From a bacterium (GTDB taxonomy: Bacteria > Planctomycetota > Planctomycetia > Pirellulales > Pirellulaceae), in the NCBI GenBank assembly GCA_024743355.1, contig JANSWS010000035.1:1-32881 (forward strand): a stretch of DNA of 32,881 nucleotides. Direction: 5' to 3'. Both the position numbers and the translations under genes were made by a program. The notes under the pieces are model-generated. The model made no database searches. It worked only from the letters and a program-made list of their open reading frames with translations, and was not told the origin of the DNA. Shown here piece by piece: positions 7,557 to 32,351 of this stretch; the first letter of the stretch is position 1, and each line of letters starts with the position of its first letter.

Positions 7557-7622
7557 ATAGTCGCCTTTCGCTCCGCGAAAGTAGCGTTTTTCCGCAGCTT
7601 TCGCGGAGCGAAAGGCGACTAT
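7557..7622. repeat. REP pair (BIME-like): perfect 25-bp inverted repeat, same family as the repeats around the RAYT gene
   Basis: The left arm (7557-7581) and right arm (7598-7622) are perfect reverse complements across a 16-nt centre. Each arm holds its own hairpin, CTTTCGC-TCC-GCGAAAG, next to an ATAGTCGC foot. The same arms occur at 29912-29979, where the centre is nearly the reverse complement of this one, so the two units are in opposite orientation. It lies between gspE (stop 7637) and gspF (start 7477). Confidence 0.9.
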
Positions 7623-27702: not shown

Positions 27703-27777
27703 GTAGGATCCGCTTGCCGAGCGGTTCCTTGCGACGTTTGATTTTGGCCGGAGGGTCGTTTGTGGTCGGACGCTCGA
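27703..27777. repeat. 75-bp direct repeat, copy 1
   Basis: This copy pairs with 28159-28233. The first 31 bp of both are identical, starting GTAGGATCCGCTTGCCGAGC, and the rest is diverged but ends GGTCGGACG-TCGA in both. The core can form CCGCT-TGCCG-AGCGG. The two copies frame the gap between the TraB-like and sulfatase genes. Confidence 0.85.
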
Positions 27778-28158: not shown

Positions 28159-28233
28159 GTAGGATCCGCTTGCCGAGCGGTTCCTTGCGAAGTTTGCTCT
28201 CTGCCAGACGATCGTTCGCGGTCGGACGTTCGA
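28159..28233. repeat. 75-bp direct repeat, copy 2
   Basis: This is the partner of 27703-27777 in the same orientation, about 60 bp upstream of the sulfatase start. Confidence 0.85.
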
Positions 28234-28305
28234 TGGTCTAATATATCGATAAACTGATTGCTGCTGGTTGTTTGCCCTGCCCCCTCTCAAGACATGGTTG
28301 GATCA

Positions 28306-29904
28306 ATGCAAAAGCAATTTCGCACGATCTTTGTGGTGTTTTTCGGGACCGCTTGGACGGCTTTGGGACTTTTGCCCCAGGCGGAGTGGACGCCGGCCCA
28401 GGAGAGACCAAACATCCTGTTTGCGATCGCCGACGATTGGTCTTACGGCCATGCAACAGCTTATGGATGTGCATGGGTTGAAACTCCCAGTTTCGACCGC
28501 TTGGCACGCGAGGGGTTGTTGTTTCAGAACGCGTATACACCCAATGCGAAGTGTGCTCCTTCGCGAGCAACAATTCTCACCGGGCGCTATTCCTGGCAAT
28601 TGGAGCAGGCGGGCAATCACATGGCCATCTTCCCTGCCAAGTTCGGAGGATTTGTCGAGCGTCTGGCGAGCGACGGTTATTTTGCAGGATACACGGGTAA
28701 GGGCTGGGGGCCCGGTATTGCCAACGATGTGAATGGCGCGGCAAGAGAGATTACGGGTAAGCGCTACAGCGGACGTCAAGCTCAGCCTCCGGCCAAGGAC
28801 ATTTCTCGCATCGATTACGCGGCGAACTTCGGTGACTTTCTCCAGGACGTGCCGGATGGGCAGCCGTGGGTTTTCTGGTATGGAGCCCTTGAGCCACATC
28901 GCAGTTACGAATTCCAATCGGGGGTCAAAGCCGGTAAACAATTGAGCGATATTGACCGAGTTCCCTCCTATTGGCCGGATACGGAAACGGTTCGGCACGA
29001 TATGCTGGATTATGCCGTTGAAGTCGAGCACTTTGATGCCCACCTCGGAAAGATTCTAGAACAATTAGAAGCATCTGGGCAGCTGGATAATACGCTGATC
29101 GTGGCGACCTCCGACCATGGAATGCCTTTTCCCAGGGTCAAGGGGCAGGCTTACTCGCACTCGAACCACATTCCTCTGGCGATACGCTGGCCGCGAGGCG
29201 TTCAAGGAACTGGACGTGTCATTGATGATTTCGTGAATTTCACGGATTTGGCCCCCACATTTCTCGAGGTCGCCGGTGTTACCGAACCTGGACCGATCAT
29301 GCAATCGCTCAGCGGAAGAAGCCTGACGGATATCTTTGAATCCGAAGCCTCTGGGCAAGTCAATCCCGAGCGAGACCACGTTCTGGTTGGTAAGGAACGA
29401 CATGATATTGGGCGGCCGAACAACGGCGGGTATCCGATTCGCGGCATTGCCAATGGTGATTTCTTGCTCGTTCGGAATTATGCCGTCGATCGCTGGCCAG
29501 CCGGAGACCCGGTTACTGGCTATTTGAACTGTGACGGCAGCCCAACCAAGAGCCTGGTTTTAGAGCTCAGACGCAGCGGTGAGAACCGGAGTTGGTGGGA
29601 CTTGTGCTTTGGCAAGCGGCCCGAGTTAGAGTTGTACAACCTCAGGACCGATCCGGATTGCGTGACGAATCTGGCCACGCTGGATCGTTACGCGGACGTA
29701 CTCAGCCGCCTGGATCAGCAGATGCAACAAGAACTCAAGCAACAGGGCGACCCACGTATGTTTGGCCAGGGAGATGTATTTGATCGCTATGAATATTCGG
29801 CCAGTGAAACCAATAATTTCTACGAGCGATTCCTGAGTGGGGAGGCCTTGAGGGCCGGCTGGGTCAATCGCAGCGACTTTGAGCCGGAGCCAATCGACGA
29901 CTGA
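28306..29904 (+). CDS. Secreted sulfatase, S1 family (heparan N-sulfatase / SGSH-like type)
   Basis: This 532-aa protein has an N-terminal hydrophobic signal (about 6-23) and then the S1 sulfatase fold. D43 and D44 (IADDW) bind calcium. CAPSR at 83-87 is the sulfatase signature in which Cys83 is oxidised to formylglycine. The segment around it ([26 protein letters not shown]) resembles the SGSH-like S1_8 group, and SDHGMP plus a later [10 protein letters not shown] supply further active-site residues. Sulfatases release sulfate from polysaccharides or small esters, and marine planctomycetes are rich in them. I chose ATG 28306; ATG 28294 is in frame, and a TTG at 28258 would give a poor leader. 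No anaerobic or aerobic sulfatase-maturating enzyme is in the window, so one is needed from elsewhere. Family is secure; the subtype is by resemblance only. Confidence 0.92.
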
Positions 29905-29911
29905 TTGTCCG

Positions 29912-29979
29912 ATAGTCGCCTTTCGCTCCGCGAAAGCTGCGGAGAAGAACGCTACTTTCGCGGAGCGAAAGGCGACTAT
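29912..29979. repeat. REP pair (BIME-like) at the 3' end of the RAYT gene
   Basis: Perfect 25-bp arms (29912-29936 and 29955-29979) flank an 18-nt centre. Each arm contains CTTTCGC-TCC-GCGAAAG. The stop codon of the transposase gene (29976-29978) is inside the right arm. The centre is close to the reverse complement of the centre of the unit at 7557-7622. Confidence 0.95.
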
Positions 29980-30620
29980 GGTTCGTGTTTGCGATAGTAG
30001 AATTCGCCTGGCTTGAGTCCGGCTTTGTGGGGATTGTCCGCGATGTATCGTTTCAGATAAGCGTATTGCTCCGGGCTGCGGACAAGATGGTCGAAAGGTT
30101 CCTGTTGCCAGAACTTGCCTTTCTCACCGATCGCTTGATGGATTCGGAATGCGGTGTAGTGAAGCCACGAATCACACTGGTCTCTCATGCTGTGCTCCGT
30201 TGCGAACGCCGCCAGCAGGTGAACGTGATTCGGCATCACGACAAAGTCGCCCATCCGGTAGCGGTGCCCATCGAAGTACATCAGAGCATTAGCCACGATT
30301 GTTGCCAGTTCGGGACGGCGAAGCAGACAACGCCCGTGACAGGTGTCCAAAAAGTCCTCTCGAACGCGGTTGAACTCCATTTTGAATTGTTGCTGCTCCT
30401 TGACATCCAAATTTGGCACCACTTCCGACCAATGACCTGGATGGCCGCGTCGATAAATCCACTCTTGCTTCTCACGTTCCCATCGTTCCAAGACGTTGCG
30501 TGGAATGGAATCTTGCGTCCGAAAAGTGATGAAGACGATCGCGCCGGCTTGCGACCAGTGAGGTCGATAGTGCTCGCTGATGGACAATTCCGCTTTCGGA
30601 TCGAACAGTTCGCCAAGCAT
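29976..30620 (-). CDS. REP-associated tyrosine transposase (RAYT / TnpA_REP, Y1_Tnp domain)
   Basis: The 214-aa protein has the HUH motif of Y1 single-strand transposases in VVMPNHVHLL, with His132 and His134. The C-terminal part has YAYLKRYIADNPHKAGL, which holds the candidate nucleophile tyrosine (Y186, Y188 or Y192) and the NP-KAG ending seen in RAYTs. N-terminal residues about 20-36 (HWSQAGAIVFITFRTQD) match the start of the Y1_Tnp fold. RAYTs bind and cut REP hairpins as single-stranded DNA. They are usually single-copy and domesticated, and lack their own flanking IS ends. The gene fits this: a REP arm ends upstream within a few bases of the ATG (30625-30647) and a REP pair overlaps the stop. 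It lies between two sulfatase genes. Length and motifs are complete, so activity is possible. Family is secure; function on these repeats is inferred. Confidence 0.93.
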   Translation of the reverse strand: MLGELFDPKAELSISEHYRPHWSQAGAIVFITFRTQDSIPRNVLERWEREKQEWIYRRGHPGHWSEVVPNLDVKEQQQFKMEFNRVREDFLDTCHGRCLLRRPELATIVANALMYFDGHRYRMGDFVVMPNHVHLLAAFATEHSMRDQCDSWLHYTAFRIHQAIGEKGKFWQQEPFDHLVRSPEQYAYLKRYIADNPHKAGLKPGEFYYRKHEP

Positions 30621-30624
30621 AAAA

Positions 30625-30647
30625 AGTCGCCATTCGCTCCGCGAAAG
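30625..30647. repeat. Single REP arm just upstream of the RAYT start
   Basis: AGTCGCCATTCGCTCCGCG continues to AAAG. One T-to-A change leaves a mismatch in the stem relative to the other copies. It lies 4 nt from the ATG and would be part of the transcript leader. Confidence 0.85.
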
Positions 30648-30720
30648 AAGCGGGTGAGGTGAGTGTAGCTGTTGCGAAGGCTAGTGTCCGAATCCTATGC
30701 AATAAAGCTGCGTTTCGCTA

Positions 30721-30743
30721 CTTTCGCGGAGCGAAAGGCGACT
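30721..30743. repeat. REP arm, opposite orientation to the arm at 30625
   Basis: CTTTCGCGGAGCGAAAGGCG followed by ACT matches the right arm of the REP pairs. With the arm at 30625 it forms an inverted pair 73 bp apart. Confidence 0.88.
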
Positions 30744-30775
30744 GTCTAGCGTCAATTGATCGGATGCTCTCGCTA

Positions 30776-30800
30776 CTTTCGCGGAGCGAAAGGCGACTAT
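30776..30800. repeat. REP arm, complete 25-nt right-arm copy
   Basis: This arm is identical to the right arms at 7598-7622 and 29955-29979 and lies 18 bp from the stop of the second sulfatase gene. Confidence 0.9.
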
Positions 30801-30818: not shown

Positions 30819-32351
30819 TCAGAGGGCTTCCGCGGGAATGGCTGCCCGCATTTCTTCGATCACTCTTTGAAATTGTGTCTGACGAATCAGGTTGGTCCAT
30901 TCGTGAGGATCTTTTGTCAGGTCATACAGCTCTTCACTGCCATCGCGGTAACGGATGTATCTCCAGCCTTGGGATCGTAGGCTGACATTGCCAGCGTCGA
31001 AACTGGTGACAATCCGGCGATTCGCAGCGGGTGTCGTGTCGGGGTGGGTTTGGCCATGCAGTAGCGGAACCAAGCTCAAGCCATCCAAATCATCCGGGGC
31101 TGGCAGCTGGCACAGTTCTGTCAAGGTTGGATACAGATCGATCAGGCTAACGGGCTGATCAATCGTGATTCCCCGCGCGTAAGCCTGGCCGGCCTGAAGC
31201 GGCGGGACAACGATCAAGGGGACACGCGTCGAGCGTTCCCAGCCGGTCCATTTTCCCCAGTGCTGTTTTTCACCCAGATGCCAGCCATGGTCGCTCCACA
31301 GTACGATCCAGGTGTTGTCGCGATAGCTGCTCTGCTGGAGCGCCTCGATCAGACGCCCAATTTGCGCGTCCACGAAGCTGGTGCAAGCCAGATAAGATTT
31401 GACCGCTTCTTTCCACTGGTCGTGCGCGATGACCGTTTGGTGAGAGCCGGCAGTGATCGCTTCTAAAGCCCAACGTTTTCCGCTGGGGCTGAGATCTTCC
31501 AAGTCGTCCGCCAAATGCGTCGGAAGTTGGATCTCAGTTCCCTGGAAGCGTTCAAAATATTTTTTGGGTGCCCAGAGCGGAATATGCGGACGGTAGTAGC
31601 CCACGCATAAGAGAGTGGGTTGCTCCGAGGGTGCTTTTAGCTGCTCCATGGCCCAATCGGTGATTTGGGTGTCGCCCATATCAGCATCGGCAACGTCGAA
31701 AGGCCCCCAGTCAAAGGATTCTCCGTCTCTGGACTGAGGGTTGCGATCCGAGGGCATGCGATTGAGAGGAAGAACGATCTCGGTGCCCTGGAGTTGGAGC
31801 GTATGAATCGGGTTTTGCGTTCCCTTGGTGGGCAATTCTTCCTCGGTGTAGGCGACCGACTGTTTGGTAAGCGGACTCCAACGTTGTTCGACGTTGAAAT
31901 GCGCATCAAACATTTGGCGGTTGGCTGCCTCTCCGGAGTGCATCAACTTGCCGGTCCCGAATGTGCGGTAGCCTGCTTCGTGAAAGGCTCTTGGAATCAC
32001 CTTTACAGCAGGCTCCAGCTGGAAGAGTTTCTTGCTGTCGTTCGACCACACCCCGGTTTTCCACGGCATGCGTCCTGAAAAGATTGCTGCGCGAGAAGGA
32101 TTGCATGCGGGCGAAGCGCAATGCGCATTTGCAAATAAGACCCCGCGGCTCGCCAATTGATCGATGTTGGGTGTCAAGGCCTGGGGATGTCCACCCAAGC
32201 ATCCGATCCAGTCGTTGAGATCATCGATGGCGATCATGAGCACGTTGGGCTGACCAGCGGTCGGTTCCGCGTGGAGCTTGGTAAGCCCACCCAGCCCGGC
32301 CAGCAGCATCGCGAAGTAAATCCACGGCATCACGGAACGTTGCGTTCGCAT
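30819..32351 (-). CDS. Secreted sulfatase, S1 family (iduronate-2-sulfatase-like type)
   Basis: The 510-aa protein has a signal peptide (PWIYFAMLLAGLGGLTKLHA, about 9-28). Calcium ligands D43 and D44 are in AIDDLNDW. CNPSR at 83-87 is the formylglycine signature, inside ACNPSRAAIFSGRMPWKTGV, which resembles the IDS-like S1_7 group. A second active-site segment is WSDHGWHLGEKQHWGKWTGW, with Asp, His and Lys. Substrates are probably sulfated polysaccharides, acted on outside the cytoplasm. The ATG at 32351 has a weak GAGAG 5 nt upstream; Met8 is an alternative. It reads towards the RAYT gene and its stop is 18 bp from a REP arm. The other sulfatase in the window is of a different S1 type, so the two are not a recent duplicate pair. 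Family is secure; specificity is not. Confidence 0.93.
   Translation of the reverse strand: MRTQRSVMPWIYFAMLLAGLGGLTKLHAEPTAGQPNVLMIAIDDLNDWIGCLGGHPQALTPNIDQLASRGVLFANAHCASPACNPSRAAIFSGRMPWKTGVWSNDSKKLFQLEPAVKVIPRAFHEAGYRTFGTGKLMHSGEAANRQMFDAHFNVEQRWSPLTKQSVAYTEEELPTKGTQNPIHTLQLQGTEIVLPLNRMPSDRNPQSRDGESFDWGPFDVADADMGDTQITDWAMEQLKAPSEQPTLLCVGYYRPHIPLWAPKKYFERFQGTEIQLPTHLADDLEDLSPSGKRWALEAITAGSHQTVIAHDQWKEAVKSYLACTSFVDAQIGRLIEALQQSSYRDNTWIVLWSDHGWHLGEKQHWGKWTGWERSTRVPLIVVPPLQAGQAYARGITIDQPVSLIDLYPTLTELCQLPAPDDLDGLSLVPLLHGQTHPDTTPAANRRIVTSFDAGNVSLRSQGWRYIRYRDGSEELYDLTKDPHEWTNLIRQTQFQRVIEEMRAAIPAEAL

Follow-up and report, generated by a model that had tools for sequence, protein, structure and literature searches.

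A small gene enclosed by inverted hairpin repeats lies between the convergent genes 28258-29904 and 30819-32351 of the window, which is the whole stretch of DNA analysed (32,881 nucleotides from a Pirellulaceae genome). The two neighbours look like sulfatases, a class of genes that is common in Pirellulaceae. The locus raises the question of what the enclosed gene encodes and whether the hairpins around it belong to it. RAYT (REP-associated tyrosine transposase), REP and REPIN are already known elements, and it is likewise known that the foot serves as a guide (PMC2817692, PMC3116915, PMC6006769, PMC8266576). We believe, with a probability of roughly 85%, that the locus is a REPtron, in which a RAYT gene stands between two REPINs formed by its own REP hairpins (Table 1).

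Table 1. Coordinates of the RAYT gene, its stop codon and the repeats of its family in the window.
Feature	Position	Strand	Basis
RAYT gene, predicted product 214 aa	29976-30620	-	motifs, profile matches, model
TAG stop of RAYT, contributed by the opening bases of the extended repeat (A-TAG-TCGC)	29976-29978	-	sequence
REP arm 1, partner of arm 2	29912-29936 (core 29914-29936)	+	repeat match
REP arm 2, on the RAYT strand, GTCG foot overlaps the stop	29955-29979 (core 29955-29977)	-	repeat match
3' REPIN, arms 1 and 2, feet outward	29912-29979	.	pairing, fold
REP arm 3, one mismatch, strand opposite to RAYT	30625-30647	+	repeat match
REP arm 4	30721-30743	-	repeat match
REP arm 5, single, in tandem with arm 4	30776-30798	-	repeat match
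Second, isolated REPIN of the CTTTCGC family, elsewhere in the window	7559-7620	.	repeat match

The first-pass annotation had taken the frame for a RAYT and pointed to an HUH motif (NHVHLL) and to YIADNP, both of which are present. The HUH motif is NHVH at residues 131-134, and the predicted catalytic residue is Tyr192 within YIADNP, which makes the protein of the Y...NP type and not of the Y...Q type. N131, H132, H134 and Tyr192 were invariant in an alignment of 40 relatives. W171, Q172, D177, H178 and R181, a set resembling guide contacts, were invariant or nearly so among the relatives; they were paired with the GTAG-contacting W94, Q95, E/D100, H101 and R104 of E. coli via the motif WQQEPFDHLVR. 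The sole matches in NCBIfam and Pfam were REP_Tyr_transpos (NCBIfam) at 1.4e-14, below the cut-off of that profile, and Y1_Tnp (Pfam) at 4.4e-4, just below cut-off. A PDB sequence search with the protein gave no match. The structure model, for which the 40 relatives served as input, had a mean pLDDT of 87.9. Its top PDB match was 4ER8, the E. coli RAYT in complex with a REP hairpin (E 1.3e-5, 14% identity in the Foldseek alignment), and IS608-type transposases ranked after it. The TM-score against 4ER8 was moderate (0.40 by query, 0.51 by target) because the window protein is longer than the 4ER8 protein. The profile matches, the structural match and the motif residues bear out the earlier assignment, and the frame, as judged from sequence and model, encodes a RAYT.

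Each arm around the gene consists of a 7-bp stem with the loop TCC, in agreement with the 17-nt hairpin and 3-nt loop described before. The perfect 25-nt inverted repeat ATAGTCGCCTTTCGCTCCGCGAAAG, made up of arms 1 and 2, had correctly been placed over the 3' end of the gene. The arm said to end 4 nt before the ATG was also recovered (arm 3, whose foot sits at that distance outside the gene), as were the two arms further upstream. Arms 3 and 4 make up the 5' REPIN, with a start-to-start distance of 95 nt and feet outward. In both flanking REPINs, one foot touches or almost touches the gene. The 3' REPIN folds end to end into one hairpin on either strand, at about -36 kcal/mol with DNA parameters, and a single arm and a whole REPIN each fold well as single-stranded DNA. 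The window holds seven matches to the 22-mer, compared with none in 100 dinucleotide shuffles, and the arms around the RAYT are not due to chance. An Rfam search gave no match.

The stop codon of the RAYT lies within a repeat arm, as had been claimed, and is the TAG of ATAGTCGC on the minus strand. Among the 39 RAYTs with a downstream foot detected within 80 nt, the foot makes the TAG stop in 15, and only two registers occur (TA-G|TCG and G|TAG). Such a stop is expected where a REP abuts the end of a gene, because the repeat itself carries TAG. Di Nocera et al. 2013 (PMC3733652) state that REP termini often supply the TAG stop to flanking ORFs, and REPs immediately downstream of rayt stops have been noted (PMC2817692). 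A stop codon supplied by a REP is thus not new and has been known since 2013.

Pattern searches of the 8.31 Mb draft genome, from which all copy counts come, found the 23-mer 68 times (up to 3 mismatches) and the reversed-pattern control 0 times. In an alignment of 74 copies from this genome (up to 4 mismatches), GTCGC was conserved at 92-100% and the third base of the foot was C in 99%. The base preceding GTCGC was variable, with A in about 70% of the copies (68% of the 74). Of the AGTCGC foot proposed earlier, GTCGC therefore holds, but the leading A is not conserved and the foot is not a different motif. It is better read as GTCG followed by a 1-nt spacer C, a third-base variant of GT[A/G]G; the canonical 5' foot GTAG or GTGG is not what these copies carry. 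We also considered the CGTC REP superfamily, which has a CGTC tag, a stem of 8-9 bp, a loop of 4-5 nt and no transposase. It was rejected, since the repeat here has a 7-bp stem opening with a C-G pair, a loop of 3 nt, a link to a RAYT and a variable base before GTC.

When neighbouring copies in the genome were paired, 26 of 29 pairs proved to be inverted with feet outward, which together with the count answers the earlier suggestion to look for paired copies genome-wide. The spacings of the inverted pairs were 38-41 nt in 21 cases and 71 nt in four. In many copies a further inverted repeat, GTTCGATCAAT / ATTGATCGAAC, adjoins the pair on its outer side, and the whole unit then measures about 115-120 nt; most copies adjoining the RAYT are without this outer repeat. 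This longer unit occurs at 30721-30768 of the window and at the own-genome loci L001-L030 and L135-L161. Three REPINs (L005, L018 and L021, on C189, C576 and C729 of the window genome, G000) have related flanks beyond the repeat, e.g. CGCGGTCGCAGCC.AAAG.GACC, as if a larger segment containing them had been duplicated. The window also has another REP-like sequence, GTAGGATCCGCTTGCCGAGCGGTTCC, which is GTAG-tagged and lies at 27703-27728 and 28159-28184 in the same orientation. The two copies are part of a 78-nt repeat (85% identity; by chance, 0 would be expected), and pairing as GGATCCGCT-TGCCG-AGCGGTTCC is possible with a single mismatch. A canonical GTAG-type family thus seems to coexist in this genome.

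The copies are dispersed in the genome without the RAYT gene. Other RAYTs of the same genome were relatives at 66% and 46% identity, plus fragments, and there was no second copy of the gene; low copy number and low identity among copies are in line with a RAYT/TnpA-REP. These data also bear on an IS200/IS605-type insertion sequence, which would move as a unit of gene and both ends. Such an element would share the HUH/Y1 fold and the inverted hairpins enclosing the gene, but it would not account for Y...NP in place of Y...Q, for a gene present once, for the different repeats flanking both full-length relatives, or for repeats scattered without a gene. We consider it highly improbable.

To relate the repeats to the RAYT across the family, 241 genomes were surveyed, and a close RAYT (E <= 2.1e-75) was present in 38 and absent from 203. 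At least 10 CTTTCGC copies were found in 23 of the 38 genomes with a close RAYT and in 24 of the 203 without (Fisher p 6e-10, overstated because the genomes are not independent). Where CTTTCGC arms flank the RAYT (17 genomes), every genome carried at least 11 copies (range 11-327, median 55), counts that include the few copies adjoining the RAYT itself. The 19 genomes whose RAYT has another stem had a median of 5 CTTTCGC copies (p 2.5e-5 against the CTTTCGC-flanked group, overstated for the same reason). As a stem control, the TGGATCGC pattern was found in the three congeners G001, G007 and G010 (22, 12 and 3 copies) and was absent from the other twelve genomes of the genus, that is, the window genome and 11 congeners. 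The cognate repeat named at the outset, CTTTCGC-TCC-GCGAAAG, is very likely the right one, in view of its flanking position, its dispersal and the stem-matched copy numbers. It had been argued that an arm equally abundant in genomes without such a RAYT would speak against this pairing. This holds in part, as the 24 genomes with at least 10 copies and no close RAYT show, and the association between RAYT and repeat is strong without being absolute.

Five genomes that lack a close RAYT had high copy numbers, with many exact copies: G065 (619), G171 (239), G163 (202), G168 (95) and also G162 (range 95-619). The likeliest explanation of these exceptions is that the RAYT was lost or was missed by the assembly; loss is more likely in G162, G166 and G168 because these are single-contig assemblies. 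The exceptions could also mean that a different RAYT in the genome, or RAYTs in general, and not this one, spread the CTTTCGC repeats, and the window genome does have further RAYTs. However, its two other full-length RAYTs are flanked by CGACCGCTCCGCCGGTCG and CCTCACG repeats, and the other RAYTs examined in the exception genomes have different repeats or none recognised, with no CTTTCGC arms. Spreading by other RAYTs is therefore unlikely in our opinion.

G166, G167 and G168, which are 85-96% identical across most aligned stretches, allow a view of REPIN persistence or decay with and without the RAYT. G167, with the RAYT, has 120 copies; G166, without a close RAYT, has 26 and G168 has 95. At the RAYT site of G167, G168 has matching flanking DNA and no recognisable RAYT. 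Four G167 REPIN loci were aligned to both genomes. In G166, all four had lost their hairpins wholly or partly, with pieces of arms or foot remaining, while in G168 three were intact or nearly so and one was replaced by other sequence. Near position 2700 of L211 in G168, an unrelated palindromic repeat, ATACTAGCACGAAGCGCAAGCGAGTG ... CACTCGCTTGCGCTTCGTGCTAGTAT, stands at a G167 REPIN locus. Two of the G166 breaks carry 3-nt direct repeats (GAA and GCG). The G166 loci were considered as empty insertion sites, and this was rejected because the remnants of arms and foot at the junctions point to deletions. There was no clean new insertion among the loci compared between G166 or G168 and G167. The four loci fit old, vertically kept REPINs that erode.

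The repeats might instead have been retained for a role as RNA elements, for example as terminators or mRNA 3' ends, with the RAYT merely located among them. Repeats adjoin the ends of the gene here, the DNA hairpin is strong and the RNA hairpin is expected to be strong too, and roles of this kind have been suggested for REPs (PMC3733652). Against this, the repeats form outward-footed inverted pairs with few fixed spacings, repeat decay appears to follow RAYT loss at the four G166 loci, and foot and stem track both RAYT presence and the RAYT tree. We hold an RNA role to be an improbable explanation and retain the REPtron reading.

About 40 RAYTs from Pirellulaceae genomes, down to about 40% identity, were compared; they were sampled by similarity to the window protein, and other RAYT groups are under-represented. 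Most are flanked by their own hairpins. GTNG is kept in their feet and most have GTCG; GTGG is found in three, GTAG in one close and several distant relatives, GTTG in one and a mixture in one. The stems beside them are CTTTCGC, TCTTTCGC, CGTTCGC, TGGATCGC, TGGTTCGC, CGATCGC, CCGTCGC, CGACCGC and CAAATTGC. Stem pairing is kept despite the sequence changes, the apex is usually GC-TCC-GC and the loop mostly TCC. In the RAYT tree, which comes from a quick search and has a very long branch leading to the E. coli outgroup, CTTTCGC-like and GATCGC/GACCGC-like stems fall largely in two different clades, the three GTGG-footed RAYTs form one clade (starred), and the third base of the foot needs only 6 changes. 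The GTCG foot marks a Pirellulaceae RAYT clade (30 rows, SH-aLRT 97), and GTGG and GTAG feet also occur inside it. The clade supports, in modified form, the distinct RAYT subgroup suspected in the first-pass annotation, its usual foot being a variant of GT[A/G]G. A search for residue swaps found no single alignment column that separates GTCG rows from GTAG/GTGG rows; WQGD was specific to the three GTGG rows, and the foot changes are too few for interpretation. A 68% identical RAYT whose arms are of the GTCG-CTTTCGC type occurs in R. baltica strain BR-MGV. The RAYT loci L083 and L120 have alternating arrays of different hairpins, e.g. CCATTTGC and CAAATTGC, mostly GTCG-footed.

From the biochemistry of the E. 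coli, Stenotrophomonas and Marinomonas TnpA-REP proteins, the window RAYT would be expected to bind the REP as single-stranded DNA, with GTCGC-CTTTCGCTCCGCGAAAG as the putative substrate. It would read the hairpin, probably via the conserved GC-TCC-GC apex, together with the 5' foot. Tyr192 would cut beside the REP, and the foot would select the dinucleotide that is cut. Under the cross-complementarity rule, A3-G4 selects CT and T2-G4 selects CA (PMC8266576). A GTCG foot is accordingly predicted to direct cutting at C|G (C3 and G4) or C|A (T2 and G4), not at C|T. CG stands upstream of the foot in 70-91% of the copies, a raw figure without background correction that is not evidence for the cleavage dinucleotide. 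Cutting and rejoining of paired REPs at replication may copy REPINs around the genome, and once the RAYT is lost the copies would decay.

RAYT and REP are thought to co-evolve. To our knowledge, the foot has so far been regarded as almost invariable (GT[A/G]G), with no substitution tolerated in E. coli. We tentatively suggest, with less than even confidence, that in this Pirellulaceae clade the guide tetranucleotide (GTAG, GTGG or GTCG) switched together with its RAYT, re-programming the cleavage and insertion dinucleotide (C|G or C|A for C|T). If true, the switch would be a natural version of laboratory guide-swap experiments. The large GTCG clade, in which some members have GTGG or GTAG feet and the stems covary, provides a natural series in which to study guide reading and cut-site choice by HUH proteins.

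The repeat sequence itself was not found in the literature searched, nor was a description of a RAYT clade with mostly GTCG feet in which foot and stem track the protein, the R. baltica families being compared by the available text. According to that text, R. baltica, a member of the same bacterial family, has several families of REPs and numerous tyrosine transposases; its repeats are filed under the GTAG superfamily, and the GTAG tag is described as degenerate to GTMG in some unnamed families (Di Nocera 2013, PMC3733652). The E. coli RayT/TnpA-REP with its REP/BIME (PDB 4ER8; Quentin subclass 2.2, Bertels group 2) shares the HUH/Y1 fold, Y...NP, the guide-contact residues W, Q, D/E, H and R, and flanking inverted REPs. 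At 14% identity it differs in having EHMH, where the 214-aa window protein has NHVH, and the window REP, a short hairpin with a perfect 7-bp stem, has no bulge and carries the foot GTCG for GTAG. The Group 3 REPtrons of Stenotrophomonas (Sm) and Marinomonas (Mb) (Corneloup 2021, PMC8266576) share short perfect palindromes with a loop of 3-4 nt. The Marinomonas foot, 2 nt from the stem, is a further likeness, and foot substitutions are partly tolerated in Group 3 (PMC8266576); the protein motif there is DH[LF]H (PMC6006769), in contrast to NHVH, and the foot is GTAG. Subclass 2.7 of Quentin 2018 (213 aa, [ND]HVH, WQ, YI[LR][NQ]NP; PMC6006769), compared by its published signature only, shares the length, NHVH, WQ, Y...NP and REP flanks. 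It differs in its reported GT[AG]G feet, where the window has GTCG, and in YI[LR][NQ]NP, where the window protein has YIADNP and its relatives YIRDN and others. Set beside these systems and judged by its sequence, the locus is a genuine RAYT/REPIN system that belongs to a known kind as a variant with GTCG feet, with cleavage and mobility predicted.
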